NCBI GenBank assembly: GCA_943737045.1
Contig: CALSFV010000008.1
Coordinates: forward strand, 372,001-436,000
Source of the DNA: Parapristionchus giblindavisi
Lineage: Eukaryota > Nematoda > Chromadorea > Rhabditida > Diplogasteridae
Length of the DNA: 64,000 nucleotides
Direction of reading: 5' to 3'
Numbering within the stretch: the first letter of the stretch is position 1; every line of letters starts with the position of its first letter. The translations under genes and the position numbers were made by a program. The notes under the pieces were generated by a model. It was not told where the DNA came from, searched no databases, and worked only from the letters and a program-made list of their open reading frames with translations. Below, one piece after another: positions 14,442 to 57,718 of this stretch.

Positions 14442-14580
14442 AGGAGCTGACCAAGCTATGACTTTGTGTTTCATCATCATCGATTTACAATGTTTTCTTC
14501 TAGTTGGCTGTCTGGAACGAGCCGATAGTCTAGCTGTATGCAACACCTACTCCGGCTTAGTCTATGAAGCCAGGTTTGTA

Positions 14581-15567
14581 CAGTATCGTCCAAAAGTAAT
14601 GGGACACTTTTTCATTTTTTTATAACTTTTGATCCAGGAAATCAATCAAGCTGATCTTTTTAGTCAATGTTCAGAATATATCAAGGAATATTACCATGAT
14701 GTGTTGGTGTAATTAAATTTGTTCACTGATGCGTAGTGATGACGTAATCGAAATTCACTTTTTTGAAAATTTTTTTTTCTTTAGTAAAAAGTCCGGTTCT
14801 TCTGAAACATTGTGAGAGTGTAGACATCCACTAGGGCTGCACAGTCAACAAAATCGGAATGGCTGCGACACCGATTTCAAGCTGTAGCGATGTTGCAAAA
14901 TTGACTTTCGAAATTTAAAACTCGGCTTCTAGATGTGCTAACGACCCGTTCTAAGCACCAAAATGATGCTAGTGGCGAGTGATGTTTATTCCCAGATTAT
15001 GGAAGTCATAGCTCTTCGTTCGCCCTCAGGGCATGAAAATTAATTTTTCAGGAAGGACTGATTTTGAGACCCTACCGTTCGGAGGGCAGGTATTCTAAAA
15101 TTATGGTTTCTCCGCAGGCACCTTTGTAATGTATCATATATTTATTTCCCTTATTTTGGTTTGGTTCCGATTCCTTTTAGACGCGCAGCAAACGTTCTGC
15201 TGACATCTACTCGGTTTCAGCGCGTAGCGCGCATTCACTCTTTCTCTCTCTCTCACTGCTCTCGTCCCTGCGCCTCTTTTGATGAAATCTCTTGTTTTCA
15301 AAGCTCCGATATACGTTAGAGATCTTCACAAAAGTTTTTACTCTGTTGTAAAACGTTGATCTTTGATCTGTGCACTTTGATCTTTGATCTTTGCACTTTG
15401 ATCTTTGATCTTTGGCGGCAATTTCCAAACAATAGAGAGAATATTTGTTTTTTCCAACACTGGCACTTCTTTAAAATGCAAAATAAGGCTTCAGAACTGC
15501 TACCACTGTACTTCAGTCATACTGTATCAAAAATAAATTCATGCGGTTGGTACTCTCGCACGGATAT
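14581..15567 (+). repeat. Left TIR of the Tc1 element (987 bp)
   Basis: This is the inverted partner of 17227-18212 with only scattered differences. Besides the terminal CAGTATCGTCC it holds tandem GATCTTT(G/T)GATCTTTG motifs (15357-15412) and the phrase TCATGCGGTTGGTACTCTCG near its inner end. The short ORFs inside it (for example 15207-15428 and its twin 17365-17586) are by-products of the repeat. Confidence 0.92.
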
Positions 15568-15730
15568 TTCTTCACAAAAGTTTTTACTCTGTTGAAGAAC
15601 GTTGATCTTTGATCTTTGCACTTTGATCTTTGATCTTTGTCCGCAATTTTTCAAACAGTTGTCGAAAATTCACTTTTCAAGTGTTAAATGTAAGATTTAT
15701 CTTACTTTAAAAATAAATAACTAGTGAAAT

Positions 15731-15811
15731 TTAACAACAAAGATACAAGGATTAACAACAAAGATACAAGGATTAACAACAAAGATACAAGGATTAACAA
15801 CAAAGATACAA
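15731..15811. repeat. Four tandem 21-bp repeats beside the transposase stop
   Basis: TTAACAACAAAGATACAAGG-type units recur every 21 bases about four times. They lie just outside the transposase stop codon at 15815, in what would be its 3-prime UTR. No function is evident. Confidence 0.85.
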
Positions 15812-15814
15812 CGA

Positions 15815-17052
15815 TCAATATCTCGTGGGATAGCCCTTAGCCTTCAGTACGGCTGCACATCGCTGGGGCATCGACTCCACAAGATTGATCAGGGTATTGG
15901 AGGGGATCTGTTCCCAAGCTTCTTGGAGAATCTTGAATTTCTCAGCAGCATTCTTGGGATTACGGCCTCTCACGGCCCGATCGAGCACCTCCCAGAGGTG
16001 CTCGATCGGGTTGAGGTCGGGGCTCTGGCTTGGCCACCGGAGGACCTGGAAAGATGTATATTTTATTTCCGTAATCATATTTCCCCTTGACCCTTCTGAA
16101 TCTTCGTACCTTGACCTTCTTCCGATTGAAGAATAGTGTGGCATGACCGGAGGTATGTTTCGGATCATTGTCCTGCTGGAATTTCCATCCAGCAGGGCAG
16201 TTCACCGAAGCCCATGGGAGCATTGTTCTCTCCAGGATGTCCACGTACTGCTCCTTACGCATGATGCCATCGATGAGATGAAGTGGGCCGATGGTCCCGC
16301 CAACGAAGCAACCCCAAACCATGACGCACCCACCGCCATGCTTGACGGTGGGGATCATGTATTTGGGGTTGTAACGCTCGTTCACAGGGCGGCGCACGAA
16401 CTGAACTCCGTCTGAGAACAACTCAAACTTCGACTCATCACTCCAGACGACGTTCTTCCACTGTCGGCATGTCCAATGCAAGTGATCTTTAGCGAACCTG
16501 TAAAATTTAATTGTATTCCCGTCTCACTACTACTGTAAATTTTGATAGAAATGCTCACTTGATTCGTGCTCTTCTGTTCTTTGTTGAAATCAGCGGTTTT
16601 CGTACGGGCCTTCTCCCAACCTGCCCTCCCTCATACAAGGCCCTCTTCACGGACGATATAGAGGCGGGATGATCCGGCCGAGTCGAGTTCAGCTCCGCCT
16701 GCAGCAACGGTGCACTCATACGAGGGTTCTGCTTACTCTTGACTACTAGATCCATCTTATCTCGCTTACTCAGCACGGGTGGACGGCCGGGCCTAAATAT
16801 ACGAAATACATATAAAATGAATAAAAACAAGAAAAGAGAAAAAAACACTATTTTATTTCTATGTAAATACTCGCACGAAACGAACCTCTCGGCATCCTCG
16901 ACTGCTCCACGTTTCTTATAACGCTTGATGATGTTTCCAATCGATGACTTCGGAATCCCCGTTTGCTTTGAAATCTTCCTGACACTGACTCCCCGCAGAT
17001 GCATCTCCTTGATGGTGTTCCGAAGATCGACGGAATACTGGGGTTTCACCAT
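15815..17052 (-). CDS. Tc1-type DD34E transposase, four exons, apparently intact
   Basis: Exons on the minus strand are 17052-16886, 16792-16559, 16497-16110 and 16045-15815. The introns are 93, 61 and 64 bases, all GT-AG. Exon lengths sum to 1020 bases, giving 339 residues with no stop or frameshift, close to the roughly 340 residues usual for Tc1 transposases. The N-terminus is a homeodomain-like HTH (VSVRKISKQTGIPKSSIGNI) followed by GRPP. The catalytic residues are D in VVWSDES, D in QQDNDPKHT and E in LNPIEHLWE, with exactly 34 residues between the last two once intron 3 is removed. It cuts and pastes the element at TA sites in the nucleus. The three small introns are unusual for the family but each restores conserved motifs, which supports the model. 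Confidence 0.92.
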
Positions 17053-17226
17053 CTAAATAACGAAATAATTACACGAACAGTGCAATGTTGATAACAGTTT
17101 CAAAGTACAACAATGATCTGTGATAAACAACATTATAAAACATATTAAAAATGAAACAGGTACGAAATAAATATTTAAGAAAACAAAAAATTAAGAGAAA
17201 GTTTCATAAAAGTACTGTAACTTACT

Positions 17227-18212
17227 ATATCCGTGCGAGAGTACCAACCGCATGAATTTATTTTTGATACAGTATGACTGAAGTACAGTAGTAGCAGTTC
17301 TGAAGCCTTATTTTGCATTTTAAAGAAGTGCCAGTGTTGGAAAAACAAATATTCTCTCTATTGTTTGGAAATTGCCGCCAAAGATCAAAGATCAAAGTGC
17401 AAAGATCAAAGATCAAAGTGCACGGATCAAAGATCAACGTTCTACAACAGAGTAAAAACTTTTGTGAAGATCTCTAACGTATATCGGAGCTTTGAAAACA
17501 AGAGATTTCATCAAAAGAGGCGCAGGGACGAGAGCAGTGAGAGAGAGAGAAAGAGTGAATGCGCGCTACGCGCTGAAACCGAGTAGATGTCAGCAGAACG
17601 TTTGCTGCGCGTCTAAAAGGAATCGGAACCAAACCAAAATAAGGGAAATAAATATATGATACATTACAAAGGTGCCTGCGGAGAAACCATAATTTTAGAA
17701 TACCTGCCCTCCGAACGGTAGGGTCTCAAAATCAGTCCTTCCTGAAAAATTAATTTTCATGCCCTGAGGGCGAACGAAGAGCTATGACTTCCGTAATCTG
17801 GGAATAAACATCGCTCGCCACTAGCATCATTTTGGTGCTTAGAACGGGTCGTTAGCACATCTAGAAGCCGAGTTTTAAATTTCGAAAGTCAATTTTGCAA
17901 CATCGCTACAGCTTGAAATCGGTGTCGCAGCCATTCCGATTTTGTTGACTGTGCAGCCCTAGTGGATGTCTACACTCTCACAATGTTTCAGAAGAACCGG
18001 ACTTTTTACTAAAGAAAAAAAAATTTTCAAAAAAGTGAATTTCGATTACGTCATCACTACGCATCAGTGAACAAATTTAATTACACCAACACATCATGGT
18101 AATATTCCTTGATATATTCTGAACATTGACTAAAAAGATCAGCTTGATTGATTTCCTGGATCAAAAGTTATAAAAAAATGAAAAAGTGTCCCATTACTTT
18201 TGGACGATACTG
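17227..18212 (-). repeat. Right TIR of the Tc1 element (986 bp)
   Basis: This is the inverted copy of 14581-15567 and includes the GATCAAAGATCAAAG tracts at 17380-17432. Scattered mismatches (for example in the CAT or CGT of the segment near 17810) show that the two arms are separate sequences. Confidence 0.92.
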
Positions 18213-19300
18213 TATATCTATAGTGTGAATATTGAATTATTCTCTTTAAAATCATCTACAGTTATAACCTCTATGCAATCAAATAAATAATTTTTAGTTT
18301 TTAATATCTTTATAGCTAGATAATATTTACTGTTCGGATTATTACCATGCAACGACTATGATATATAATTATTTTCTTTATTATAGATGAAATTCGCAAA
18401 AACCGTCTGGAGACGATCAATTGCAGTGGAATCAACTCTACAGACAACTAAAGGTTTGTGATTAATAATGACCTAAAGCTAAACAAATGAATGCAAAATG
18501 TATGCTTTGTTTTGCAAGTACAGGCTATAATGAATTGACTAATATTTTATAAATCCTAAAGGAAACTAGTTAAAGTGGGATTCTTCGTATTTTCTCCCCT
18601 AGTCTTGTACTTCTTCTTAATTCTGTGGGTAATTCAGTAATTCTCTTTGAATTATATTTAATGCTGGAGTTCTCTCCGGGTATCTGTCATACGGCGATAT
18701 TCTTTGAGAGGAGGTTTCAACTGAAACTACTATTTAATTTCATTTCAGACCGTTTCTTGTGTCTGTGTACGTGAAGACGTTACGGCGACGGCGGTACACA
18801 AGGCGATGTAAGCCGATCGATGCTGGGCGACGGACCATATTAATTAGAAGAAGACACGGATACGGTAGCCGACGAATGAGCTGTATATGCTCGTCCAATT
18901 TTTTTATTTGTAATTGTATATTGTTGATTGATCTAATCTATTGTGTTATCTTTGTTACGTTAAATTGTTGTTATAAAAGTACTTTTCATACATAAATCTA
19001 AGGCAAGATTGTCAGAGGTACGCTCGTCAGAACATTATAGTGTTCCTGCTTCAGCATTGACAAGGATAATCAGGCGTACATTCGTGGAGAGTATATGATT
19101 TACTAATAAAAACTCATGACGAATCAAAAAACATAGATTACAATAGATGAGTTTGAAAAAAAAGGAAAAGAAAACGAAAGTACAGGGCATCGATGCTAAT
19201 CGGATATTTTATCATGTATCTCTTATTATTAGACCATTATGCAAATCAATAGTTCGCTAATATAGATTCATATCTTTCTTTCACTGTCTACCATGCATGC
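18213..19300. other. Right part of element B, no convincing gene
   Basis: An AG acceptor-like site (TTATTATAG) precedes ATGAAATTCGCAAAAACC at 18388 and a donor-like GTTTGTG follows. A second acceptor (TTTCATTTCAG) ends near 18748 before an arginine-rich stretch (18759-18950). Joining them in phase meets a stop quickly, so the pair is not called as a gene. The remainder is AT-rich. Confidence 0.35.
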
Positions 19301-23750: not shown

Positions 23751-24036
23751 AGATGGAGACCCACGAGATTTTTCGTAATAAGACTGTTCGGATAGAATGA
23801 TAGAAATTCATCACACGAATCGAAAGACATATCTGATTTTGATTCCCGAAATGTTTAAAGCACACTATGCGCATTCAAAGTATAACTTTCAAGGCATGTA
23901 GAGAGTGCCCATCAGCTTTGCATACATGCTCTCTCATTTTCTCATTGTCTCTTACGCCAATTACCATATAATATAAACAATGCCAACATGCTTATCATGG
24001 CGGGAGTCAGTCATGCCATCTTATGGGTCCCCTTCT
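23751..24036. mobile_element. 286-bp TTAA MITE
   Basis: TTAA duplication at 23747-23750 and 24037-24040. The left end AGATGGAGACCCACGAG and the right end, reverse complemented AGAAGGGGACCCATAAG, match the termini of the 14.7-kb unit at 25259-39967. The next bases (ATTTTTCGT) are shared as well. Non-coding. Confidence 0.8.
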
Positions 24037-25254: not shown

Positions 25255-26853
25255 TTAAAGAAGGGGACCCACGAGTTTTTTCGTGACTAAACTGGCCAGA
25301 CAGAACTATTGATCACATCTCCTTGTATACAAAAACAATTTTTTCCAAAATTTTAGGTGCCCCAGAATACAGTAATTCGGGCTTAAAGTTCATTGATATG
25401 AGTAGTATATGTTGGTCTCACTAACATAAAAAATGGCTGTCTATAGGATGTTTTTTTGAGAAGTTTTTTGAGATGTTTTTTGTTTGTTTTTTAAGTTGTT
25501 TTTTGTTTGTTTTTTAGATGTTTTTTTAAGTTGATTTTTTAAAAAAATTTTGTTTACATTATCGATTTTTTGTAGATCAATCAAAATGATAATAATGATT
25601 GACAACTCTTATCAGCCAATCAATAAAATCACTCTAATCAATTACTACAATAATCAACAGTAATCAACAGTAATCAACAAGTACAGTAATCAATTTGAAA
25701 AAAATCATCATATTATCGATTTTTTTGTAGATCAATGATTTATATTATCGATTATTTGAAGATCAATAATAAAAAAACAATTGAAATCATCACTACAGTA
25801 ATCAACAAAGACTTACCAGACAGACGCAGCCGCACGGTCAACTATTGAAGTTGTAGACTGAGCTAGCTAGGGGCGGGGCCTCCTCCCGCACATCGAAACT
25901 CCGCCCACTCTGCTTCTCTATACCCTCTCTCTTTTACATTATCTATTTCCCTAATAGAAAAGAGGGAGAGAGAGAGGGGATATCCATTACACGTCTGCTT
26001 GATTATGAAGGGATGTGCACCATGACCCCACACCTGACACCCCCCCCCCATAGATAGGTAGCTAGAGAGAGATATATAGAGAGAGATAATTCAATCACAA
26101 CAATAACAGATATAAATATAGGATTACTATAGTTGCCACAATGAATTCTCATTTTTAATGAATTCTCATCATCCACTTACTAGATCACCCTGACAATTAA
26201 CAATCAAAGAGATAAGACAGCCAAAACATTAATTCACTTTCTTTGATCGTATTTAATATGAAAAGAATAACACCCAGCAAGATATATACTGAGATAAAAG
26301 TAGTGAAACCATAATTTAACTAGCCAATACATAATTAGATTATTCCAACTGAAATAAGTAGAGATAAAGTATGCTAAACAAAAGGAAAGCTGAGACGAGA
26401 CTTGCATGAGAGTTGGAGATGACAAGATGTTTAGAATAGTAATGATATAGGTAAAATACATGACCAAGCATTTATTTTCCATATATATTTTGTAGAGTAG
26501 TGAATGCTGATAGGTATTAAGAATGAAGAAATGATTAGTAGAAGATAAGATATCAAGTCGTGATACAATAAACTAACACTCAATCAACCTTCACGGAAAC
26601 ATCTAACCTGACTGATAACAATTATTCTAATGCTTGAAGAAGTTACAGCAAGTTGTGATAAAGGTAAAGGTACATCCCGTTATTCAAGGCACACGAAGTC
26701 CTGCGGGAGATCACTACTATAATTCAAGGCCAATTCAGTGGGTCTAATCTCTTCTTCGTTGTTGATTTGTAGTTCTTGTTGTTGTTGTTGAAGATGAAGT
26801 TTGACTTTGAAACTGCATGTTGGAAAGCAAAGAAAAAATACAGCAAAAGAAAT

Positions 26854-26926
26854 TGTACAAGGGGGGATTCGAACCCACGACATTCCAAAAGCTAATCCAG
26901 CACTCTAACCACTTGGCTACGAAAGA
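26854..26926 (-). tRNA. tRNA-like sequence in the left palindrome arm
   Basis: The minus strand has TAGCCAAGTGGTTAGAGTGC (D arm) and GTGGGTTCGAATCCCCC (T arm, one mismatch), with TTTCTTTT downstream. The anticodon and acceptor stems pair poorly. The same sequence is present in mirror position in the right arm. Confidence 0.45.
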
Positions 26927-27184
26927 CACAGACTGTGTTCTTTGAGTGTTTGACACTATTCCACGGGGCTCGCGCCCAAATTTCCATCACATTTTCATAA
27001 TCGATTTTCGGTACCAAAGAAGCAAATATGCGGACATTTCAAAACAGTTCTGTGACCCCCTGGGGGGTCCTAGTCGACCTGTGTCAACGAATTTAGCACT
27101 GAGTGTCCGCGGCATTTGTGGTTCCCTTGTAAGAGAGGCACAAAACGCTCACAACAGATAGATAGTTTCCTCTCGCCTGAGAGA

Positions 27185-27505
27185 GCCCTTCCCAGCTGCA
27201 ATTACTCTTCCATCCACCGTAACCCTTCACTTCTATAGTATCCTTTCCCAGCTACAGATTCCCTTCCCTTCTACAGTGACCTTTCCATATACAGTAACCT
27301 TTCCCAACTACAGTATCTCTTCCAAGCTACAGTAACCTCCCCGTCTACAGCATCCTTTCCAAGCAACAGTGACCCTTCCCTGTTACAGGAACCCCTCCAT
27401 CAACATTAACCCATACATTCTACAGTAACCTTTCCATAAGAGTAGCCTGTCACTTCTACAGTAACTTTCCCATCAACGGTAGCCCTTCCAAGCTATAGTA
27501 ACGAT
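27185..27505. repeat. Degenerate 18-20 bp repeats in the left arm
   Basis: CTACAGTAACCTTTCCC-like units recur about 16 times with substitutions (AGCTACAG, TTCTACAGT, CTTTCC). They are too diverged for slippage and look like an old satellite. A mirrored copy lies at about 37640-37960. Confidence 0.8.
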
Positions 27506-29074
27506 TAAATCCCAGGCACTTCTTTGATTTCTGGCCCAGTTGATATTACAGATTAATTCTAGTCATTTCTCATTCCTCATCACTCATTATTCATTTCTCG
27601 TAGTAACCGATCCTTTTCTCGGTTGTGGTAAAACCAACCGCATCATGATTGATAGAATGATGAAATGAAAGTTTTGCCTCCTCCTTTCCCATACTCTATC
27701 ATCCTAATCCAATTCCATTTCCATATCACCACATTCCCCTATAAAAGCATTCGATTCCTTCTCTCCGGTTCAGTCCAGAGCTCTCCCATCTTGAGGAGAG
27801 CTCGGGGAGCATTTCGCCCCCGTTCACATCGTCCTCCCAGTGAGGAGGACGACCCCTCCATTCGATCGAAAAGATCGAAATGGGGGGGGGGGGGTGAACG
27901 AGGGGGCTGGGCCCAATCAAAGAAGTTCCAAATCCCATTCATAGCCGACTCTATCCCATATATCTAAAACAATACAGTAAGTAAATACAATTATCACCAG
28001 CATTCTTGGTGTAAGCATGTGTTTATCGTGCAGTCTCCACTGCATAAACGGTGTGAAACACAAGTGTGACTGGTTAGATAATAGTGGATATGCGAGACGT
28101 TATTCGTGTGAGAATTGATTATCATTGCCGGGACACTGTTAACAATTCAAAAATACGGCAAACATTGGATAAAAAATGATTGCGCGTAAACAAAGTACAG
28201 GCAAAAAATAGTCAAAATCGGAACAAAAAATACACAAAAATAACTTTTGCGCGAAAAGTTTGAGGGCATATTATTGAAGATCTCTACGTCACTGGGTGCG
28301 GGGATCGGAGGAGGAGGAGGACAACGGAAGATCGTTGCCGGCTGCAAACGATCTTTGATTTTTGATATTGATTTTTTTTATCTTTGATCTCTCACATCCC
28401 GATCGATCACTGGACGCCCTTCAAAGGTCTGTGTGATGGGTTGGATGTACTCCCTGATAAAGATTCGAGCTTTTCCTCCATTGTAATTGATAACCGAAGC
28501 TTAAAGTTGATGATTGGTCTTTGATTTTTAATCTTTGATCTTTGATGAGCTTACAGTAATGGTGCTCGATCAGCTCGGTCATCAACAATCGTTTCCTCTA
28601 AAAAACGTTTCCTCTTCCTCAATGAAGAAACGACCTTCTCTGTAATAAGTATATCAAAACTAATGAAAATAAGTATTGAAATTTTAATATCGAATTTCTC
28701 GAAACTCAGGGCATCTAGGCACTCCTAAAAAGAGATTCGTAATCACCATCGAAAACTTATTCTAGCCATGATATTGCCATCTCAAATGGCCAAGACAAGC
28801 CGACAGAGTCCCCTAGTGAGTGGAGTGGCAATGGGTCAATAGAAGGACAAAGAGGAACAGTTTAAGAGAGATGGCCGTTAAAACTCGACGACCCCCCGGA
28901 AGCGTGCGCAAGTAATGAGAACTGGTGGTCCATACTTGGGTGTTAGGAGTGTCCCCGGCTCTTATTACACAAAACAGCAAAAAAATCCTGTTTGTGCGCT
29001 CAGGCAATTTAAAAAAATAATTTAAGTGCGAAAACGTTTAAAAATCATAATTTCTCAAATTGTTGAGATGAAGT

Positions 29075-29332
29075 CTAAATATCATTTGCGATGCGTCTGG
29101 GGGTTACAGAACTTGATAATTCATTATTAGCATCGAATGTGCGTTGATTCCTACACCACTTTTTTGACTCAGCATTTTTTTTCTCGGACAAATCATCACT
29201 TGTTTTTGTTTTTTTTTGACAGAGTTTTCCGACTAGGTATTGTAGTCTAAGCAATTCTGCATTGATTTCACTTAAAACTGGGTTCTCCACGATAGACCCA
29301 GTTGTCGATTTTTTCGATCGAATTGCCGCCAT
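29075..29332 (-). CDS. Short hypothetical ORF, left arm (85 aa)
   Basis: This is a lysine-rich 85-residue frame with a leucine-spaced helix (INAELLRLQYLVGKLC). The identical peptide is encoded in the right arm at 35815-36072. The identity reflects arm identity and is not evidence of selection. No family is recognised. Confidence 0.2.
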   Translation of the reverse strand: MAAIRSKKSTTGSIVENPVLSEINAELLRLQYLVGKLCQKKTKTSDDLSEKKNAESKKWCRNQRTFDANNELSSSVTPRRIANDI

Positions 29333-32233
29333 CGATGGTTGTCCTGTACAAATGCTGTAATCGTGGTCTACTCAAAGTTTCGAGGTGAGACGAGTAGAAT
29401 GACACAAGAAGCCCATCACTTTGATCAAATTGAAAATTTCGATTTTCATGGTCCGAAAATTTCTAAATTTCTCAAGTTTGAAATGTTTTCATTTATTCGG
29501 CTTATTGTGAAGTACTAATGATGTGAATAATATTCAGCCAATACTTAATGGCTGATCTCTCCTTTCAACCATTTTTCAAACATTTTCGTTCTGAATGAGT
29601 GCGAAAAATCAGAATTATGTTTGAATCAGTTCCCAACTTGCTTTCTGTACCATTCTGTCATAGCACTTTACAATGTACATAATCAATATGAAAAAAATTT
29701 TTTTCGTCATGTAAATCGTTTTTTTTTCAAAAGTGAGCCCAATGCCGGGATTCCAGTTCTGCTATGTTTACTCATCATGAAACCTCACATTGTCATTGTC
29801 ATTTGCTCATTGTCGCAGAGTTCGAGTTAACAAACATCAATATTTCAGAAATTTGCCGCGAAAGTAGGCACTCAAATTGAATTTTATGTCACATCTTGAT
29901 TTTTCGACTTTAAGTAGATCAAAAATCGATAAATTTGACGAAGCCAAACTCCGTCTGCGAGCTAATGACACACCATGCTACAGCCGTGGACGATTTGGGC
30001 CCGGTTCAAATCACTTTTAGGCCAAGTGCGAAGAGAATATCACTTGAGCCAGATAGTCTCTCTTATAATTGTTTATTCTCTCTGGCTTGTTAGTCTTTCG
30101 TTTTTTTTTTCTGTGTAAGCCTGTGTAGTGTCTCATCTCTAGACGGAGAAGCAGCATAGAATTAAAAGATGCATAAGCCATTCCTCACTTTGGACAAGAA
30201 ATGCGAGTAAACAGTGTGTCATCGACTGCTATTCCTCACTCCATCGTGTCATCTCTGGGGAGAAGACAATATGAAGAAGACGAAGAACGAACATGAAAAA
30301 TTTGAATTAGATCGAGATCCTTTTCATAGATCTTCGAACAATAATCTCCTATCGACTCACTCCAAGTACCAAGCATATTTACTCCATCCATTGTCATCCT
30401 ATGAAATAATGTAATCTAGTTTGGTTTACTAGTTTTGTCTAGTTTCTACTCTTCTAACTTCATTTTCTATTCCTTTGTTCATGTTAGTGCTCGTTTCATC
30501 ACCTTCGAAACCTTGTTACGGCTCGTTTTCAGTATGCTCCCCCCATTTTCTTTTGTCCCTTTCATATTCTAACTTTTTCTCCTTGGCACATTTCTCGTTT
30601 AGTCTTTCTTCTCTTACTTTTTCTCGCTCCTCACCAAAAGGGCCTCTCATAATTCTTGCGAGCGGAAGCCCGAAGGGAGACCGTTCCATCTTCTCCCCTT
30701 CTTCTTCTTCTTCTCAATAATTCCAGAGTCGCTTTCTCTCTTTCTAAATTACAACCCTTCTTGTTTCGCTCTTCTGCTTCATCTAACATGACTTTGTTCA
30801 GTGAGAGAGAGATGAGAAGGCGAAAATGAATATGTAGACTCAAGATGATCATTATCTGCCCACAAGCGCAACAATCCAAGTGAAATGAAACGGAAAGGCC
30901 ACGAAATGATATATCAATGAAATATATCTATCTGTTCCTTTCTTTACATACGATTCAAGCTTTCCATATAAATCCCACTTCGTTTTCTTCTTTTTATCTT
31001 TTCTTAGCAAAACAAACACTAGCAGAGTGAAAAATGATTTTGGAATAGTGGGATGACTAAAATTGCGGAAAGAGTTGGTACGATTATATTGTTAACTGAT
31101 ACGAATATTATTCATTTTATTGTCTTCTGTTAGGATTGGTGCGAACGACTCCCACTTACAGTATTATTTGTTTCTCTTAAGATCTTCAACTTTTCATCTT
31201 CCACTTCCAAGAAACTCCTTTCTCCTTGAGTATCACTTCAAGTCCGCGAAGTGTTCGAATGAAAAAAAGTCTGTTTTTTTTTCAGTCTGGTAATCATTCA
31301 AATCTGTCCTTGTACTGACTTTCGACGGTATCCCCTCTTGTTTACGTCTCTCGGAAAATCTTCGACTCGCAAGAGACAGAAATTGTTCTACTACGACGAA
31401 ATTAGATTATCAGTGCGCACACACAAAATAAGTGAAAGAGACGAAAGTAAGATAGAGTTTCTTCTCCCATAGGAGGAAGTTGCCCAATCTCATCTTGTAT
31501 ATTGTCTATTCATTTACATATATTAAGAGCTGTACAATGGAGGAAGTTGGAGATATCCCACGAATACTTTCGAGCATCTTTCTCATTCCATAGTGATGTA
31601 GACGGAATTCATTATTCATAGTGCTCTATATAGTCCGATAATGGTTTGTAGATATGGCCATGATAGTATTCTCCGCCCCCTATGGGTTAACCAAAGCTAG
31701 AATATGGGAGTCCCTCTCCTTTTCTGTCTTGGCTGCATCACACATCTCATTTTCATTCTCTCATCCATTCACGTGGACTACTTATTCATTCAACTTCTCA
31801 TATTCCTAATCGACTTACACCAGGACTAGAGAAACTTACTTTTACACATTACTTTTGCCTATTTCTAACTTCGGTCTTCTCACTCTAGTCTATTTCTTTC
31901 ATCTTCTTATTCTTTTCTTTTTTTTTCATCGCGTGACTTCTTTCTTATCCATTGATGAAACATTCATCAGTACCCATTTTCTTCTTCATAATCTTTTATT
32001 CATCTTCCATCCATGTCGTTCTTACGATCGCCAAGTAATGATTTTATACTTTTTCAATAAACCACCTTTTCAATATCCACATCAATAATACATTATTGTT
32101 TGTTTTATTTTTAATATTACACAAGTTCATTATATTTTTCAATGTTATCCTTAACAAATATAACAAATATAAAATTTGAACATTTAAAATCTCCAATTTT
32201 GAAAAATTTGTTCATAATTCACTCTGACTGTTC

Positions 32234-32598
32234 CACGGCGGTTCAAGGACAGTAGTTAAGAGCGACTCGCAGTTTTTAAAAATCAGGATAAATTGTTCAA
32301 CAAATGTCTTACCACGAAAGTTCATTATTATATACGGTAATAGTTAGCGTAAGGGGAGGGAGCGACGCGACGCGCTCAACGACGCGCTGCGGTCCCTCCC
32401 CCCACATGCGTTCATCATCGAGTTCTACGAGTTATGTAGCATGCCGAGATGACTAAGTGGTTAGAACTTTTGTCTGGCGATCCGAACCTCGTGGGTTCGA
32501 ATCCCACCCGGTGCAAAACAACTTTGCCGATTTTTCGTAGTGCGGGAGGCTTCAAGACAAAGTTAAATGTAGGGATTTCCCTCCAGTGAACCGCCGTG
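32234..32598 (+). mobile_element. 365-bp TIR element carrying a tRNA-like sequence
   Basis: The ends CACGGCGGTTCA and TGAACCGCCGTG are perfect 12-bp inverted repeats, and TGTTC is duplicated on both sides (32229-32233 and 32599-32603). It interrupts only the left palindrome arm; the right arm has the empty site (complement of GAGAACAG near 32917-32924). The core holds the tRNA-like sequence at 32440-32514. A relative with the same ends lies at 60372-60704. A GC-rich patch GCGACGCGACGCGCTC is at 32363-32378. Confidence 0.9.
32440..32514 (+). tRNA. tRNA-like sequence inside the TIR element
   Basis: The T arm GTGGG-TTCGAAT-CCCAC is perfect and a D-arm-like GACTAAGTGGTTAGAAC lies upstream at tRNA distance. 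The acceptor 3-prime half CCGGTGCA has no good 5-prime partner and the anticodon arm is degenerate. The A and B boxes could still promote Pol III transcription. Confidence 0.5.
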
Positions 32599-32603
32599 TG
32601 TTC

Positions 32604-32918
32604 TACTAAGTTTAGTGTATACTGTCGTAATGACTATGGATACTAAGCGTACAGTCTTCTTCGTCTGTCGATTATACGGCAATTTGCGCTATTTCGACGC
32701 ATCCTTTGTGCGAATCCTGACAGTCAAATCCAGTTTTCGTTAACTGTGCGCTCCTATCATTGACATAATGTAGACGTACTAACTGATTCTTATTTGACTG
32801 TCAGGATTCGCACAAAGGATGCGTCGAAATAGCGCAAATTGGCGTATAATCGACAGACGAAGAAGACTGTACGCTTAGTAGCCATAGTCATTACGACAGT
32901 ATACACTAAACTTAGGAG
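32604..32918. repeat. Centre of the giant palindrome
   Basis: 32604-32729 and 32792-32918 are inverted copies (about 126 bases, a few differences) around the loop 32730-32791. They are the innermost continuation of the big arms, separated from the rest of the left arm by the TIR insertion. Confidence 0.9.
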
Positions 32919-35814
32919 AACAGTCAGAGTGAATTATGAACAAATTTTTCAAAATTGGAGATTTTAAATGTTCAAATTTTATATTTGTTATATTTGTTAA
33001 GGATAACATTGAAAAATATAATGAACTTGTGTAATATTAAAAATAAAACAAACAATAATGTATTATTGATGTGGATATTGAAAAGGTGGTTTATTGAAAA
33101 AGTATAAAATCATTACTTGGCGATCGTAAGAACGACATGGATGGAAGATGAATAAAAGATTATGAAGAAGAAAATGGGTACTGATGAATGTTTCATCAAT
33201 GGATAAGAAAGAAGTCACGCGATGAAAAAAAAAGAAAAGAATAAGAAGATGAAAGAAATAGACTAGAGTGAGAAGACCGAAGTTAGAAATAGGCAAAAGT
33301 AATGTGTAAAAGTAAGTTTCTCTAGTCCTGGTGTAAGTCGATTAGGAATATGAGAAGTTGAATGAATAAGTAGTCCACGTGAATGGATGAGAGAATGAAA
33401 ATGAGATGTGTGATGCAGCCAAGACAGAAAAGGAGAGGGACTCCCATATTCTAGCTTTGGTTAACCCATAGGGGGCGGAGAATACTATCATGGCCATATC
33501 TACAAACCATTATCGGACTATATAGAGCACTATGAATAATGAATTCCGTCTACATCACTATGGAATGAGAAAGATGCTCGAAAGTATTCGTGGGATATCT
33601 CCAACTTCCTCCATTGTACAGCTCTTAATATATGTAAATGAATAGACAATATACAAGATGAGATTGGGCAACTTCCTCCTATGGGAGAAGAAACTCTATC
33701 TTACTTTCGTCTCTTTCACTTATTTTGTGTGTGCGCACTGATAATCTAATTTCGTCGTAGTAGAACAATTTCTGTCTCTTGCGAGTCGAAGATTTTCCGA
33801 GAGACGTAAACAAGAGGGGATACCGTCGAAAGTCAGTACAAGGACAGATTTGAATGATTACCAGACTGAAAAAAAACAGACTTTTTTTCATTCGAACACT
33901 TCGCGGACTTGAAGTGATACTCAAGGAGAAAGGAGTTTCTTGGAAGTGGAAGATGAAAAGTTGAAGATCTTAAGAGAAACAAATAATACTGTAAGTGGGA
34001 GTCGTTCGCACCAATCCTAACAGAAGACAATAAAATGAATAATATTCGTATCAGTTAACAATATAATCGTACCAACTCTTTCCGCAATTTTAATCATCCC
34101 ACTATTCCAAAATCATTTTTCACTCTGCTAGTGTTTGTTTTGCTAAGAAAAGATAAAAAGAAGAAAACGAAGTGGGATTTATATGGAAAGCTTGAATCGT
34201 ATGTAAAGAAAGGAACAGATAGATATATTTCATTGATATATCATTTCGTGGCCTTTCCGTTTCATTTCACTTGGATTGTTGCGCTTGTGGGCAGATAATG
34301 ATCATCTTGAGTCTACATATTCATTTTCGCCTTCTCATCTCTCTCTCACTGAACAAAGTCATGTTAGATGAAGCAGAAGAGCGAAACAAGAATGGTTGTA
34401 ATTTAGAAAGAGAGAAAGCGACTCTGGAATTAATGAGAAGAAGAAGAAGAAGGGGAGAAGATGGAACGGTCTCCCTTCGGGCTTCCGCTCGCAAGAATTA
34501 TGAGAGGCCCTTTTGGTGAGGAGCGAGAAAAAGTAAGAGAAGAAAGACTAAACGAGAAATGTGCCAAGGAGAAAAAGTTAGAATATGAAAGGGACAAAAG
34601 AAAATGGGGGGAGCATACTGAAAACGAGCCGTAACAAGGTTTCGAAGGTGATGAAACGAGCACTAACATGAACAAAGGAATAGAAAATGAAGTTAGAAGA
34701 GTAGAAACTAGACAAAACTAGTAAACCAAACTAGATTACATTATTTCATAGGATGACAATGGATGGAGTAAATATGCTTGGTACTTGGAGTGAGTCGATA
34801 GGAGATTATTGTTCGAAGATCTATGAAAAGGATCTCGATCTAATTCAAATTTTTCATGTTCGTTCTTCGTCTTCTTCATATTGTCTTCTCCCCAGAGATG
34901 ACACGATGGAGTGAGGAATAGCAGTCGATGACACACTGTTTACTCGCATTTCTTGTCCAAAGTGAGGAATGGCTTATGCATCTTTTCATTCTATGCTGCT
35001 TCTCCGTCTAGAGATGAGACACTACACAGGCTTACACAGAAAAAAAACGAAAGACTAACAAGCCAGAGAGAATAAACAATTATAAGAGAGACTATCTGGC
35101 TCAAGTGATATTCTCTTCGCACTTGGCCTAAAAGTGATTTGAACCGGGCCCAAATCGTCCACGGCTGTAGCATGGTGTGTCATTAGCTCGCAGACGGAGT
35201 TTGGCTTCGTCAAATTTATCGATTTTTGATCTACTTAAAGTCGAAAAATCAAGATGTGACATAAAATTCAATTTGAGTGCCTACTTTCGCGGCAAATTTC
35301 TGAAATATTGATGTTTGTTAACTCGAACTCTGCGACAATGAGCAAATGACAATGACAATGTGAGGTTTCATGATGAGTAAACATAGCAGAACTGGAATCC
35401 CGGCATTGGGCTCACTTTTGAAAAAAAACGATTTACATGACGAAAAAAATTTTTTTCATATTGATTATGTACATTGTAAAGTGCTATGACAGAATGGTAC
35501 AGAAAGCAAGTTGGGAACTGATTCAAACATAATTCTGATTTTTCGCACTCATTCAGAACAAAAATGTTTGAAAAATGGTTGAAAGGAGAGATCAGCCATT
35601 AAGTATTGGCTGAATATTATTCACATCATTAGTACTTCACAATAAGCCGAATAAATGAAAACATTTCAAACTTGAGAAATTTAAAAATTTTCGGACCTTG
35701 AAAATCGAAATTTTCAATTTGATCAAAGTGATGGGCTTCTTGTGTCATTCTACTCGTCTCACCTCGAAACTTTGAGTAGACCACGATTACAGCATTTGTA
35801 CAGGACAACCATCG

Positions 35815-36072
35815 ATGGCGGCAATTCGATCGAAAAAATCGACAACTGGGTCTATCGTGGAGAACCCAGTTTTAAGTGAAATCAATGCAGAATTGCTTAG
35901 ACTACAATACCTAGTCGGAAAACTCTGTCAAAAAAAAACAAAAACAAGTGATGATTTGTCCGAGAAAAAAAATGCTGAGTCAAAAAAGTGGTGTAGGAAT
36001 CAACGCACATTCGATGCTAATAATGAATTATCAAGTTCTGTAACCCCCAGACGCATCGCAAATGATATTTAG
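35815..36072 (+). CDS. Short hypothetical ORF, right arm (85 aa)
   Basis: This frame gives the same peptide as the mirrored frame at 29075-29332. Nothing beyond a basic, helix-prone composition can be said. Confidence 0.2.
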   Translation: MAAIRSKKSTTGSIVENPVLSEINAELLRLQYLVGKLCQKKTKTSDDLSEKKNAESKKWCRNQRTFDANNELSSSVTPRRIANDI

Positions 36073-37639
36073 ACTTCATCTCAACAATTTGAGAAATTAT
36101 GATTTTTAAACGTTTTCGCACTTAAATTATTTTTTTAAATTGCCTGAGCGCACAAACAGGATTTTTTTGCTGTTTTGTGTAATAAGAGCCGGGGACACTC
36201 CTAACACCCAAGTATGGACCACCAGTTCTCATTACTTGCGCACGCTTCCGGGGGGTCGTCGAGTTTTAACGGCCATCTCTCTTAAACTGTTCCTCTTTGT
36301 CCTTCTATTGACCCATTGCCACTCCACTCACTAGGGGACTCTGTCGGCTTGTCTTGGCCATTTGAGATGGCAATATCATGGCTAGAATAAGTTTTCGATG
36401 GTGATTACGAATCTCTTTTTAGGAGTGCCTAGATGCCCTGAGTTTCGAGAAATTCGATATTAAAATTTCAATACTTATTTTCATTAGTTTTGATATACTT
36501 ATTACAGAGAAGGTCGTTTCTTCATTGAGGAAGAGGAAACGTTTTTTAGAGGAAACGATTGTTGATGACCGAGCTGATCGAGCACCATTACTGTAAGCTC
36601 ATCAAAGATCAAAGATTAAAAATCAAAGACCAATCATCAACTTTAAGCTTCGGTTATCAATTACAATGGAGGAAAAGCTCGAATCTTTATCAGGGAGTAC
36701 ATCCAACCCATCACACAGACCTTTGAAGGGCGTCCAGTGATCGATCGGGATGTGAGAGATCAAAGATAAAAAAAATCAATATCAAAAATCAAAGATCGTT
36801 TGCAGCCGGCAACGATCTTCCGTTGTCCTCCTCCTCCTCCGATCCCCGCACCCAGTGACGTAGAGATCTTCAATAATATGCCCTCAAACTTTTCGCGCAA
36901 AAGTTATTTTTGTGTATTTTTTGTTCCGATTTTGACTATTTTTTGCCTGTACTTTGTTTACGCGCAATCATTTTTTATCCAATGTTTGCCGTATTTTTGA
37001 ATTGTTAACAGTGTCCCGGCAATGATAATCAATTCTCACACGAATAACGTCTCGCATATCCACTATTATCTAACCAGTCACACTTGTGTTTCACACCGTT
37101 TATGCAGTGGAGACTGCACGATAAACACATGCTTACACCAAGAATGCTGGTGATAATTGTATTTACTTACTGTATTGTTTTAGATATATGGGATAGAGTC
37201 GGCTATGAATGGGATTTGGAACTTCTTTGATTGGGCCCAGCCCCCTCGTTCACCCCCCCCCCATTTCGATCTTTTCGATCGAATGGAGGGGTCGTCCTCC
37301 TCACTGGGAGGACGATGTGAACGGGGGCGAAATGCTCCCCGAGCTCTCCTCAAGATGGGAGAGCTCTGGACTGAACCGGAGAGAAGGAATCGAATGCTTT
37401 TATAGGGGAATGTGGTGATATGGAAATGGAATTGGATTAGGATGATAGAGTATGGGAAAGGAGGAGGCAAAACTTTCATTTCATCATTCTATCAATCATG
37501 ATGCGGTTGGTTTTACCACAACCGAGAAAAGGATCGGTTACTACGAGAAATGAATAATGAGTGATGAGGAATGAGAAATGACTAGAATTAATCTGTAATA
37601 TCAACTGGGCCAGAAATCAAAGAAGTGCCTGGGATTTAA

Positions 37640-37960
37640 TCGTTACTATAGCTTGGAAGGGCTACCGTTGATGGGAAAGTTACTGTAGAAGGGACAGGCT
37701 ACTCTTATGGAAAGGTTACTGTAGAATGTATGGGTTAATGTTGATGGAGGGGTTCCTGTAACAGGGAAGGGTCACTGTTGCTTGGAAAGGATGCTGTAGA
37801 CGGGGAGGTTACTGTAGCTTGGAAGAGATACTGTAGTTGGGAAAGGTTACTGTATATGGAAAGGTCACTGTAGAAGGGAAGGGAATCTGTAGCTGGGAAA
37901 GGATACTATAGAAGTGAAGGGTTACGGTGGATGGAAGAGTAATTGCAGCTGGGAAGGGCT
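37640..37960. repeat. Degenerate 18-20 bp repeats in the right arm
   Basis: GGGAAAGGTTACTGTAG-like units, the mirror of those at 27185-27505, are G-rich on the plus strand. Confidence 0.8.
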
Positions 37961-38218
37961 CTCTCAGGCGAGAGGAAACTATCTATCTGTTGTGAGCGTT
38001 TTGTGCCTCTCTTACAAGGGAACCACAAATGCCGCGGACACTCAGTGCTAAATTCGTTGACACAGGTCGACTAGGACCCCCCAGGGGGTCACAGAACTGT
38101 TTTGAAATGTCCGCATATTTGCTTCTTTGGTACCGAAAATCGATTATGAAAATGTGATGGAAATTTGGGCGCGAGCCCCGTGGAATAGTGTCAAACACTC
38201 AAAGAACACAGTCTGTGT

Positions 38219-38291
38219 CTTTCGTAGCCAAGTGGTTAGAGTGCTGGATTAGCTTTTGGAATGTCGTGGGTTCGAATCCCCCCTTGTACAA
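38219..38291 (+). tRNA. tRNA-like sequence in the right palindrome arm
   Basis: This is the mirror copy of 26854-26926, with the D arm TAGCCAAGTGGTTAGAGTGC, the B box GGTTCGAATCC and TTTCTTTT downstream. It is probably not a working tRNA because the acceptor does not pair. Confidence 0.45.
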
Positions 38292-39796
38292 TTTCTTTTG
38301 CTGTATTTTTTCTTTGCTTTCCAACATGCAGTTTCAAAGTCAAACTTCATCTTCAACAACAACAACAAGAACTACAAATCAACAACGAAGAAGAGATTAG
38401 ACCCACTGAATTGGCCTTGAATTATAGTAGTGATCTCCCGCAGGACTTCGTGTGCCTTGAATAACGGGATGTACCTTTACCTTTATCACAACTTGCTGTA
38501 ACTTCTTCAAGCATTAGAATAATTGTTATCAGTCAGGTTAGATGTTTCCGTGAAGGTTGATTGAGTGTTAGTTTATTGTATCACGACTTGATATCTTATC
38601 TTCTACTAATCATTTCTTCATTCTTAATACCTATCAGCATTCACTACTCTACAAAATATATATGGAAAATAAATGCTTGGTCATGTATTTTACCTATATC
38701 ATTACTATTCTAAACATCTTGTCATCTCCAACTCTCATGCAAGTCTCGTCTCAGCTTTCCTTTTGTTTAGCATACTTTATCTCTACTTATTTCAGTTGGA
38801 ATAATCTAATTATGTATTGGCTAGTTAAATTATGGTTTCACTACTGTTATCTCAGTATATATCTTGCTGGGTGTTATTCTTTTCATATTAAATACGATCA
38901 AAGAAAGTGAATTAATGTTTTGGCTGTCTTATCTCTTTGATTGTTAATTGTCAGGGTGATCTAGTAAGTGGATGATGAGAATTCATTAGAATGCGATATT
39001 GTGGCAACTATAGTAATCCTATATTTATATCTGTTATTGTTGTGATTGAATTATCTCTCTCTATATATCTCTCTCTAGCTACCTATCTATGGGGGGGGGG
39101 GTGTCAGGTGTGGGGTCATGGTGCACATCCCTTCATAATCAAGCAGACGTGTAATGGATATCCCCTCTCTCTCTCCCTCTTTTCTATTAGGGAAATAGAT
39201 AATGTAAAAGAGAGAGGGTATAGAGAAGCAGAGTGGGCGGAGTTTCGATGTGCGGGAGGAGGCCCCGCCCCTAGCTAGCTCAGTCTACAACTTCAATAGT
39301 TGACCGTGCGGCTGCGTCTGTCTGGTAAGTCTTTGTTGATTACTGTAGTGATGATTTCAATTGTTTTTTTATTATTGATCTTCAAATAATCGATAATATA
39401 AATCATTGATCTACAAAAAAATCGATAATGTGATGATTTTTTTCAAATTGATTACTGTACTTGTTGATTACTGTTGATTACTGTTGATTATTGTAGTAAT
39501 TGATTAGAGTGATTTTATTGATTGGCTGATAAGAGTTGTCAATCATTATTATCATTTTGATTGATCTACAAAAAATCGATAATGTAAACAAAATTTTTTT
39601 TAAAAATCAACTTAAAAAAACATCTAAAAAACAAACAAAAAACAACTTAAAAAACAAACAAAAAACATCTCAAAAAACTTCTCAAAAAAACATCCTATAG
39701 ACAGCCATTTTTTATGTTAGTGAGACCAACATATACTACTGATATGCCCAGGGAAAGGCGCGAGTTTTTGAAATTGAAGCACAAATATAGAAAATT

Positions 39797-39865
39797 GCAA
39801 ACGAGAATCGAGCCCGCGTGGCACGGTTACAAGCGCTGACTACTAACCATTGAGTCACACGCTTT
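39797..39865 (-). tRNA. tRNA-like sequence (Thr-UGU-like) near the right TTAA end
   Basis: On the minus strand GACT-CAATGGTTAGT-AGTC is a perfect D stem, the anticodon loop CTTGTAA would give UGU, and GCGGG-CTCGATT-CTCGT is a T-arm with wobble pairs. Two anticodon-stem pairs and the acceptor stem fail. It is absent from the opposite subterminal segment, so it is not part of the mirrored arms. Confidence 0.5.
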
Positions 39866-39971
39866 ACGCGTCCAACCAGTCAAATCTAATAGAGAACAGA
39901 ATGTCACTTCCTATGTCCCACGTTCTTCATGTCAATAGCGCAGCCCAAATCTCGTGGGTCCCCTTCTTTAA

Positions 39972-46309: not shown

Positions 46310-46680
46310 TTCTTGTGCGGTGCTAAAAAATTACTTTAAATTAATTATTATAAATACAATTTTAAAATTAATTAAAATTTTATTTTTCAATTTGTCTCAT
46401 TTCGTGTAGTTATCCCCGCCCCCCACCTGTCTCAACAGTGTTGTCAATTCGGGTTTGTGAGCGCGCGATAACTCTCTGCGTCTCTACCCATCGATCTCGT
46501 CTAATCATCTGGCCACTCTATCACTGATCTAGCACTGAGAGGGAACCACTTCCCAACTTGTAATCAATTCCAGAGGCATTTCTAGAGATATAGAGGCACA
46601 CATTTTTGTTTTCTAATGACGCAATCGATATTGTGATGTAATCAATATAATCGATATTGTTCATGCTTAAAAGCAGTCGG
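46310..46680 (+). repeat. Repeat C copy leading into a LINE fragment
   Basis: 46310-46600 is the inverted relative of 24440-24690. The following stretch to 46680 (CTGAGAGGGAACCACTTCCC, then TCGATATTGTGATGTAATCA) matches the array unit. The same order of repeat C then RT in two places shows that the fusion existed before the array arose. Confidence 0.7.
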
Positions 46681-46682
46681 GA

Positions 46683-47905
46683 TTTGTAAAATCAAAGTCC
46701 ACTGTAACACAACTTTTGAATTTTACTCAAGCGTGGCGAAATGCTCTTGATGCTGATCTTTGCACTGATGTTATCTATGTTGATTTATCTCGTGCTTTTG
46801 ATTCTGTCTCTCATAGTAAACTTTTGTACAAAGTAGAATCTCTTGGTATTAGAAATAATCTACTCTCGTGGTTTACTTCGTTTTTAGATGATCGTCGATT
46901 TTCAGTGAGAATAGGTGATACTCTATCATTTGATAGAGTGGTCGCTTCTGGTGTTCCACAATTACTCTTTTTGATATATGTTACGTATCTCCCAAGGGTA
47001 TTCAGTCATCTCCCTCAAATAGGTATTCAAATGTTTGCGGATGATATCAAACTTTTCTCCACATTCTCACATATTTCTCCACACGAATCTCACTCTCAAC
47101 TTTCTCAAGGGTTAACTTCTCTATTAGAATACTGCGAAAACTGGCAGTTATCGGTTGCACAAAAAAGTGCTCCGCCAAATAGAAAAAGTTCAACATGTAT
47201 TTACTAGATTGTTGTATCATCGTTGTTATCTTTCCTATTCCTTCCATCCTCCCTGCCCTCAACGTTTATCCTTATTCTCTCTCAATTCCCTTTATCACAG
47301 AAGAATTGTCATTGATATCGTATTTGCTATTAAGATTTTGAGATGTGAAGTTGATATTCCTTGTAGTAATTTCTATGTTTTCAAACCCCCTGGAAGGATA
47401 TCCTCGTTTGCTTTCCGTATTCCTCGATCAAAAAGAGAAAATATTCGCTCTTCCTTTTCCCATAGAACATCTCGATTTTTGACAAAAAATCCCACTATCT
47501 TACACCCAAATCTTAGCACAAATACCATTAAACCTAAATTATTATTGTCTTATGATTGATTTAGTAATTTATCCATTTTTATTTCACCCCTCTAAACTGT
47601 GTCTCATGTACAAGTTCCTTTTGTCAGTCTGTCTATGCTGACTTATGCGGTCCTCTTCCCGCTAGGGCCTCATCCACCCATTTATATCGTTTTTTTTTGG
47701 ATTTGCGGCAGCTCAACCTCACAAGAGGCTCCTCCCCTCTTCACTCTTCCTGACTGTAGCAGAAGGCGTGATCAATTAATCTCTCACCTTCCCCCCATCC
47801 CCATCCACCTCTCATTTAATAATTTTATTCTTTCACATTTTTTTTCTTGCACTCGAACACTTTGTACTTGTTGAAACACCTTTGCGGTGTACGATAAATA
47901 GATAA
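46683..47905 (+). pseudogene. CR1-like LINE 3-prime fragment
   Basis: Plus-strand RT remains: 46716-47207 has VIYVDLSRAFDSVSHSKLL, then a core motif that has lost the GTVLGP residues (SGVPQ joins directly to LLFLIY), then FADDIKLF. 47155-47559 holds the C-terminal part after a deletion. The 3-prime UTR ends with the hairpin ACACC-TTTGC-GGTGT and GATAAATAGATAAAATAAAA at 47875-47918. It is the closest relative of the RT in the tandem array but lacks its frameshift. Confidence 0.88.
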
Positions 47906-56091: not shown

Positions 56092-56331
56092 ATCTTCCTT
56101 TTCAACAGCGCTCTTATGAAAGTAGAGCATAACTTGGGATATAAAAAGAGCGCGGCGAACGCCAGACGGGTTTGAGTGAGGGGTAGTTGAGATAGGAAAG
56201 AGTGGAATTGAAGAGTGAAACGTATATTTCTTGTGGCACACCACAAATCATACCGTGCACTTCGGAAAGTTGGCCTGCTTAACAGTTACGCTGTTTCTTA
56301 ATTATGTTTGAAAAGTGTAAATGAATTATAA

Positions 56332-57718
56332 CACGCTATCTGAGAAAGTCGACATATGTGTGGTATCGACGAAAAATGGATTTTTCTGTTTTATGTATGA
56401 CAATTACAGGTTCCATGAGTGTAGTTCGCTGGTACTTGGAAATTCCTTCCAATTGAAAATTCGCTTCAGGAGGTGACCACACAACGATTTCGCGCCTTTT
56501 TCTAAAAGGTTTATTGCGAATCCGATCGATTCGGGAGTCGGTGCAATGGACTCCTTTGCGAATTCTAAGAAACTATTGCTGAGGAAAGTTTTTTGATCAA
56601 AGATCAACGAAGGCTGGAATTCGGGAATTTTCAGAAAAAAATTCACATTAAATTAATTCTCACTATTTTCCCATGGCCCAGGTAAATTTTTTATTTGCTC
56701 AATAGCTTCTGCATATTATATTACACCTTTAGTTTAAAATTGATAATTTTTAAAAAGTGGGAAATTTGTTAACGAATCAATTTTGTTTGCTGTATTCAAT
56801 TGTGGTGAGGATTGGCGACGTTCCCTAAAAAGTTTATTTCTAACGTAATCGATTCGGGACTGGGCGCATTCGAATCCTTGTCTAAATCTAAGAAACTATT
56901 GCTTAGGAGAGTTTTTTGATCAACGGTCAACGAACGCTGGAATTGGGAATTTTCGATAAACTTGTTTACATTAAATTTATTCTCGCTATTTTCCATGGCG
57001 AATGTAAACTTTTTATTTGCTCAATCGCTTCTACATAGTGAAAATTATGGAAAATAGCGAGAATTAATTTAATTTTGAAAATTTTATCAAAAATTCCCAA
57101 TTACAGCGTTCGTTGACCGATGATCGAAAAACTCTCCTAAGCAATAGTTTCTTAGATTTAGACAAGGATTCGAATGCGCCCAGTCCCGAATCGATTAGAT
57201 TAGAAATAAACTTTTTAGGGAACGTCGCCAATCCTCACCACAATTGAATACAGCAAACAAAATTGATTCGTTTACAAATTTCCCACTTTTTAAAAATTAT
57301 CAATTTTAAACTGAAGGTGTAATATAATATGCAGAAGCTATTAAGCAAATAAAAAATTTACCTGGGCCATGGGAAAATAGTGAGAATTAATTTAATGTGA
57401 ATTTATTTTTGAAAATTCCCGAATTCCAGCCTTCGTTGATATTTGATCAAAAAACTTTCCTCAGCAATAGTTTCTTCTAATTCGCTAAGGAGTCCATTGC
57501 ACCCACTCCCGAATCGATTGGATTCGAAATAAACTTTTAGGGAAAGTCGCCAAATCGTTGTGTGGTCACCTCCTGAAGCGAATTTTCAATTGGAAGGAAT
57601 TTCCAAGTACCAGTGAACTACACTCATCGTGCCTGTAATTATCATACATAAAACAGAAAAATCCATTTTTCGTCGATACCAAAAAAAATTCAGTTGTTGA
57701 ATTTTCTCAGATAGTGTG
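56332..57718. mobile_element. Foldback element of 1387 bp in chemoreceptor intron 4
   Basis: The ends CACGCTATCTGAGAAA and TTTCTCAGATAGTGTG are inverted. The arms are about 690 bases each and meet near 57045. Each arm contains two related sub-blocks (GAATTCTAAGAAACTATTGC and AAATCTAAGAAACTATTGC on the left), so a direct duplication preceded the inversion. Its length equals the period of the LINE array, but the sequences are unrelated. Confidence 0.8.

Follow-up and report, generated by a model that had tools for sequence, protein, structure and literature searches.

A giant palindrome in the genome of Parapristionchus giblindavisi as a probable non-autonomous derivative of Maverick transposons

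Introduction

Foldback (FB-type) transposons and the long palindromic repeats of nematodes are built almost entirely from a pair of inverted arms separated by a short loop. Viruses with protein-primed replication, such as adenovirus, produce snapback, or copy-back, defective genomes, in which an origin-bearing end is joined to its own inverted copy. To our knowledge, the replication of animal Mavericks (Polintons) has been inferred mainly from their genes. One report (PMC8097293) describes vertebrate Mavericks as having the end motif (AGT)2//(ACT)2 and a 6-bp duplication, with their length constrained to around 17 kb. Here we analyze a 64,000-nucleotide stretch of the nematode Parapristionchus giblindavisi (contig CALSFV010000008.1, positions 372,001 to 436,000; hereafter the window), which contains a 14,340-bp palindrome at 25401-39740. 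We conclude, with a probability of roughly 0.78, that this palindrome is a non-autonomous, full-length-palindromic Maverick/Polinton derivative integrated in a TTAA-flanked miniature inverted-repeat transposable element (MITE), and that a hairpin stage best explains its arms. No description of palindromic Mavericks was found in the open-access literature, a search that did not extend to the main nematode Polinton study (PMC10748475).

Boundaries and anatomy of the window palindrome

The inserted unit was delimited by alignment of its arms and by reading of its boundaries. It lies between two copies of the target-site duplication GATATG (25395-25400 and 39741-39746), starts with AGTAGTATATG and finishes with CATATACTACT, the termini thus having the form AGTAGT...ACTACT. 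As the preliminary description of this DNA had noted, the left arm (25401-32729, plus strand) and the right arm (32792-39740, minus strand) are inverted around an unpaired centre of only 62 bp (32730-32791); an alignment spanning 6,839 bp gives 99.6% identity, 15 mismatches, and 7 gap openings. The arm lengths are 7,329 bp (left, including a later insertion) and 6,949 bp (right), or about 6.95 kb when the insertion is disregarded. This insertion, a 365-bp MITE confined to the left arm (32234-32598; boundaries and the TGTTC on both sides read by eye), is younger than the last equalization of the two arms. The remaining differences are scattered single bases, and the view that one arm had not simply been assembled twice is borne out.

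Three dispersed repeats occupy matching places in both arms, which means that they were either copied from arm to arm or are older than the palindrome. They are located at 26750-27141 (second copy at 38003-38394), at 27515-27930 (about 416 bp; second copy at 37217-37629), and at 28862-29888 (second copy at 35260-36285), the last being found at other sites as closely spaced inverted pairs of approximately 2 kb. The longest open frame in a window arm has 112 amino acids, stop to stop. With nearly all of its length taken up by inverted arms, the unit has the shape of a foldback element, a term that describes its form and not its descent.

Two halves of one MITE lie outside the palindrome: 146 bp to its left (25255-25400, plus strand, including the left target duplication) and 225 bp to its right (39747-39971, plus strand). 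Their order and orientation are preserved, as seen from alignment to intact copies (352 bp plus TTAA). When the halves are rejoined at GATATG, a hexamer that occurs once at the corresponding position of intact MITEs, 356 of the 371 aligned bases match an intact MITE elsewhere and 345 of 371 match a second copy; the first 143 bases of the left half align end to end with an intact MITE copy. The palindrome entered a pre-existing 352-bp TTAA MITE, duplicating 6 bp.

The TTAA copies and 17-bp ends, which had been assigned to the palindrome itself, do represent a real family flanking the unit. A genome search for the 17-bp end beside TTAA, proposed in the preliminary description, gave 481 forward and 477 reverse exact matches and none for the reversed-pattern control, and many of the listed places pair about 350 bp apart, i.e., as MITEs. 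Since the TTAA flanks rejoin to a single MITE, however, TTAA/piggyBac ends of the palindrome are rejected: the TTAA duplication sits at the ends of the MITE and not at those of the palindrome. The ends are also similar, and not identical as had been supposed, to those of the MITE at 23751-24036 (AGATGGAGACCCACGAG, read by eye). Three intact copies of the interrupted MITE (L001, L003, and L007) contain a stretch resembling the body of a transfer RNA gene, with a B-box-like GGTTCGATTCCCG read by eye.

A family of giant palindromes

Relatives were sought in the genome with the first 1 kb of the window unit, and the best 40 of 201 candidates were scored; the counts below are therefore lower bounds. 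Contigs are designated by C-numbers, which also serve as names of the elements on them. At least 12 further giant palindromes, 13-24 kb long, have the same ends and 6-bp duplications. Nine of them were read at both arms (C37, C363, C655, C36, C103, C281, C1, C231, and C211), and each is inverted along its whole length and bounded by a perfect 6-bp duplication (9/9). Their arms are 97.9-100% identical in off-centre blocks and 95.3-98.8% in those spanning the centre; in C363, the terminal block is at 88%. C150 was read as one arm and the far end, and C226 and C29 as ends only; each has a 6-bp duplication, and a palindromic form is inferred for all three because their ends are mirrored and a 209-amino acid frame (ORF209, discussed below), whole or in pieces, lies in both arms at near-mirrored distances from the termini.

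Both ends were read in 19 same-end elements, and a perfect 6-bp duplication is present in 17 of these, namely the 13 palindromes (the window copy, the nine, C150, C226, and C29) and the elements C312, C66, C583, and C383. The lengths of 12 of the 13 palindromes lie between 13.1 and 18.5 kb, and C211, with a long interspersed nuclear element inside, reaches 24 kb; C312, C66, and C583 fall between 17.2 and 18.0 kb. C363 and C36 are 99.6% identical over 8 kb and have different flanks and different 6-bp duplications, which indicates that this element probably moved recently. What the window copy shares with the others is limited to blocks in the outermost 1 kb of each arm (on the left, 25401-26401, plus strand; 72-91% in blocks by sequence comparison), with mean identities of 81-87%, and 75% for an inner piece of C211. 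The remainder of the window arm is other sequence, the closest relative of which, at 93-97%, is on C392.

C32, C326, and C392 (inverted flank, one end read) were excluded from the 13 palindromes, and further end pairs were not counted (among others, C237, C28, C203, C212, C397, C114, C110, C80, and C3). At two loci, L060 (C392:58900-60700) and L040 (C326), same-end elements are embedded in inverted flanking DNA, as if a larger inverted duplication had arisen. At G000:C251:308092-308200, 109 bp lie between the same inverted end motifs, possibly a minimal derivative.

Relationship to Mavericks

The ends of the window palindrome, AGTAGT...ACTACT, equal the vertebrate Maverick motif. Moreover, its arms match the left ends of three Maverick-type elements that contain PolB matches (72-76% over 436-494 bp, E-values of 1e-77 to 1e-87, blastn with 18 loci), the match in the left terminal part lying at 25522-25944. 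These elements are C312 (17,966 bp, duplication CTGAAG), C66 (17,241 bp, AGTACG), and C583 (17,688 bp, GAAGTG). The window palindrome is almost certainly a Maverick derivative.

The second link is provided by ORF209, which is present in both arms of five palindromes and is open in C281, C150, and C29, interrupted by one stop in C103, and split into two pieces in C226. On seven of the 12 contigs with PolB matches, ORF209 homologues were found within 4 kb of the PolB match and divergent from it, with identities of 64-86% (C66, C312, and C583) or 31-34% (C163, C32, C3, and C35). Where the position of ORF209 predicted Maverick ends, they were present in all three cases read (C312, C66, and C583), with the terminus AGTAGTATAG. 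Past this terminus, the three elements have 0.5-0.85 kb in common with palindromes, at 86-90% identity in the case of C150, and in the tree of ends the C150 palindrome clusters with C312, C66, and C583.

Both ends of C226 are identical (in rounded percent) to the left end of C312 over about 1.1 kb, with a bit score of 1984 compared with 1992 for C312 against itself, and the homology ends some 150 bp beyond that; the ends of C312, compared with each other, are only 87% alike over about 1.1 kb or more. Palindromes and Mavericks thus seem, from these sequences, to have recently exchanged ends. The C226 locus (L057, G000:C226:288729-303228) is a 14.5-kb palindrome with additional end copies nearby, at C226:304541-304889 and 306202-306550.

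None of the 15 matches to the PolB family PF03175 that a profile search detected in the genome falls in any palindrome. A blastn comparison of the 15 PolB loci with the palindromes gave no match, and tblastx paired only C37 with L041, outside the PolB part. Since no palindrome has a PolB match, the palindromes are non-autonomous derivatives rather than complete Mavericks. As regards capsid proteins, packaging ATPase, and protease, the window arms have no long frames, no search having been aimed at these genes. The earlier picture of a mobile foldback unit with no detected enzyme of its own and with arms kept alike was right in outline. So was the supposition that it moves with the help of an enzyme acting in trans, which we consider very probable; the 6-bp duplication and AGTAGT ends point to Maverick proteins in place of the piggyBac-type enzyme that had been named.

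A comparison of ORF209 with a large protein collection yielded 211 candidates, none with an E-value of 0.01 or better, and no Pfam family matched it at an E-value of 1. The nonsynonymous and synonymous divergences (dN and dS) are 0.0125 and 0.007 between C281 and C150, a pair too close to judge selection, and dN is 0.19 with saturated dS between C281 and C103; the latter pair suggests past constraint only. The copy at L031:3213-3839 (minus strand) belongs to a frame that is Maverick-associated and open in three non-autonomous palindromes.

Concerted evolution of the arms

If the two arms were inherited separately, variants marking the left or the right arm are expected to be shared between copies. 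The terminal 560 bp were compared in 45 pairs of 10 copies: 1,958 sites are the same in both arms of a copy but not between copies, in contrast to zero arm-shared sites; the remainder comprises 507 single-arm differences, many of them from C363, and 21 other sites. Over 4.5 kb (21 pairs of seven copies, leaving aside the window copy, C231, and C211, which could not be aligned that deep or have a too fragmentary right arm), the corresponding numbers are 12,067 and zero, with 465 single-arm and 27 other sites. Since the arms agree within a copy while the copies differ, with no arm-shared variants, each copy's arms have been re-equalized. At this depth the left and right arms differ by 5 substitutions in C37 and by 74 in C363; over 5.5 kb the numbers are 310 for C37, which has a right-arm insertion at that depth, and again 74 for C363.

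The tree gives the same picture, left and right ends being sisters in nine of the 10 copies. The right end of C363 clusters with another lineage, which we take as evidence of a probable exchange of ends.

Proposed mechanism and alternative explanations

The palindromes probably originated in a snapback (copy-back) switch, in which the ORF209-bearing end of a Maverick was linked to an inverted copy of itself. Integration of the resulting palindrome would be the work of a Maverick integrase supplied in trans. The protein-primed PolB of a Maverick could likewise replicate it in trans, given that every arm has a single Maverick end, the presumed origin and integrase site. Strand displacement would then release a single strand that is self-complementary over its whole length. 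Such a strand could fold into a hairpin, in which mismatches between the arms would be corrected or one arm recopied from the other, and the palindrome would be renewed in this way at each round of movement. The hairpin model predicts near-identity within copies, divergence between copies, and no inherited arm-specific variants, as seen. We give hairpin-based renewal of the arms an even chance. A broader proposal, which we advance tentatively and whose odds we place slightly below even, is that the palindromes are a germline record of copy-back defective genomes: each would consist of one Maverick end and its inverted self, have nearly the length of a Maverick, be replicated by PolB in trans, be renewed through a hairpin in every cycle, and parasitize its helpers, perhaps also silencing them via hairpin RNA.

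Several observations weigh against the interpretation of the palindromes as hairpin-renewed Maverick derivatives. The right terminal 560 bp of C363 (L023/L024) differs from the left by 55 substitutions and has not been equalized, so that renewal at each move requires a later exchange in this copy. The 1,958 and 12,067 sites of the arm comparison were counted in overlapping pairs and are not independent events. For the origin of both arms from the left end of a Maverick, the evidence consists of ORF209 in five copies and the match of C103 past the terminal repeat, the right sides of Mavericks having been read for their last 60-odd bases. Each PolB match in C312, C66, and C583 consists of one conserved stretch of some 40 residues that exceeds the Pfam cut-off, and the sole long PolB frame is on C384, an element known without its ends. 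A search for the integrase domain (rve), in which the best 150 of 357 candidates were scored, was swamped by retroelements and found none in the window palindrome, C312, C66, or C583. About 6 kb of each window arm is without detected Maverick homology, and two elements with the same ends, C32 (6.2 kb) and C326 (2.2 kb, inverted flanks), have no 6-bp duplication. No replication intermediate was seen.

The main alternative retains the Maverick origin and dispenses with the hairpin, the arms being kept alike by chromosomal gene conversion after insertion. Continuing conversion, too, is expected to give off-centre arm identities of 97.9-100% in copies that are 0.4-29% apart, and the swapped end of C363 illustrates that exchange between element ends occurs. 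Yet the same C363 retains a 10% difference in its terminal 560 bp beside arms that are mostly alike, and the window copy preserves 15 mismatches and a MITE in one arm; slow conversion is compatible with both. We regard conversion as the sole equalizing process as possible, with the odds rather against it.

The other alternatives question the Maverick nature of the unit or its mobility, and we consider all three extremely improbable. A TTAA-specific piggyBac-type foldback element with the ends AGAAGGGGACCCACGAG would account for the TTAA copies and 17-bp ends that do flank the unit; these flanks are, however, the halves of a single MITE, and the inner 6-bp duplication with its different inverted termini fits the unit exactly. 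Nor are the TTAA ends an integral part of such palindromes in this genome: the 17-bp MITE end (up to three mismatches) occurs in none of the 276-500-bp flanks of the nine other relatives examined, all of which have 6-bp duplications, whereas both flanks of the window unit are positive. Foldback reads, in which one arm is read back on itself, are known to yield long palindromes in assemblies. An artefact of this kind is at odds with the distinct flanks that carry a matching 6-bp duplication and a rejoinable MITE, with the 15 mismatches, the 7 gaps, and the left-arm MITE bearing its own 5-bp duplication, and with 12 further copies that have duplications of their own. A segmental inverted duplication of host DNA, immobile and carrying a transposon end by chance, would be expected to have inverted flanks, and C326 and C392, with the same ends, do have them. 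The window unit, by contrast, stops exactly at AGTAGT/ACTACT inside a 6-bp duplication, and the near-identity of C363 and C36 within different duplications and flanks also speaks against immobility.

Other repeats in the window and genome

The window begins with a tandem array (1-7744) built of 1,387-bp units, of which the first five are identical base for base; frames on its minus strand are presumably reverse transcriptase-like, judging by a sequence motif. A diverged inverted copy is located at 46519-47380. An inverted pair of 989-bp repeats (14579-18214, 99.4% identity, ends TACAGTATCGTCC) may represent a Tc1/mariner-like element whose inverted ends are long, and a self-complementary palindrome of 1.4 kb, about 90% identical between its halves, is found at 56318-57733. 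In the genome as a whole, the SL2 spliced-leader family has 38 matches over the cut-off, as is to be expected of a nematode, compared with matches in none of 14 control genomes, a weak control in that those named are microbial.

Implications and comparison with known systems

Re-equalized halves without arm-specific variants between the compared copies look like the footprint of a self-folding stage. With such a footprint, genomes and the worm itself could serve to test whether Mavericks replicate by protein priming and strand displacement. Should the palindromes depend on helpers, they would form a natural satellite of a virus-like transposon, and their transcription, if it occurs, would produce long double-stranded RNA matching Maverick ends, in a host expected to have strong RNA interference.

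With Mavericks/Polintons, the window palindrome has in common the 6-bp duplication, the AGTAGT/ACTACT ends, end homology to elements with PolB matches, and a similar total length. It differs from them in being a palindrome in which no PolB was found and, in the window copy, no long frame; the inverted repeat comprises the whole palindrome, as opposed to only the ends of the Maverick C312. Like FB-type transposons and long palindromic repeats, the element consists almost wholly of two inverted arms and a short loop, but its ends, duplication, and homology are those of Mavericks, and its arms of about 7 kb are equalized within each copy. The palindromes differ from copy-back defective genomes in being integrated into the genome and multiplied as a family, and they are known here from integrated sequence alone. 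By analogy, they may nevertheless be likened to such genomes in combining one origin-bearing end with its inverted copy, in having nearly the length of the parent, and in their presumed dependence on a helper.

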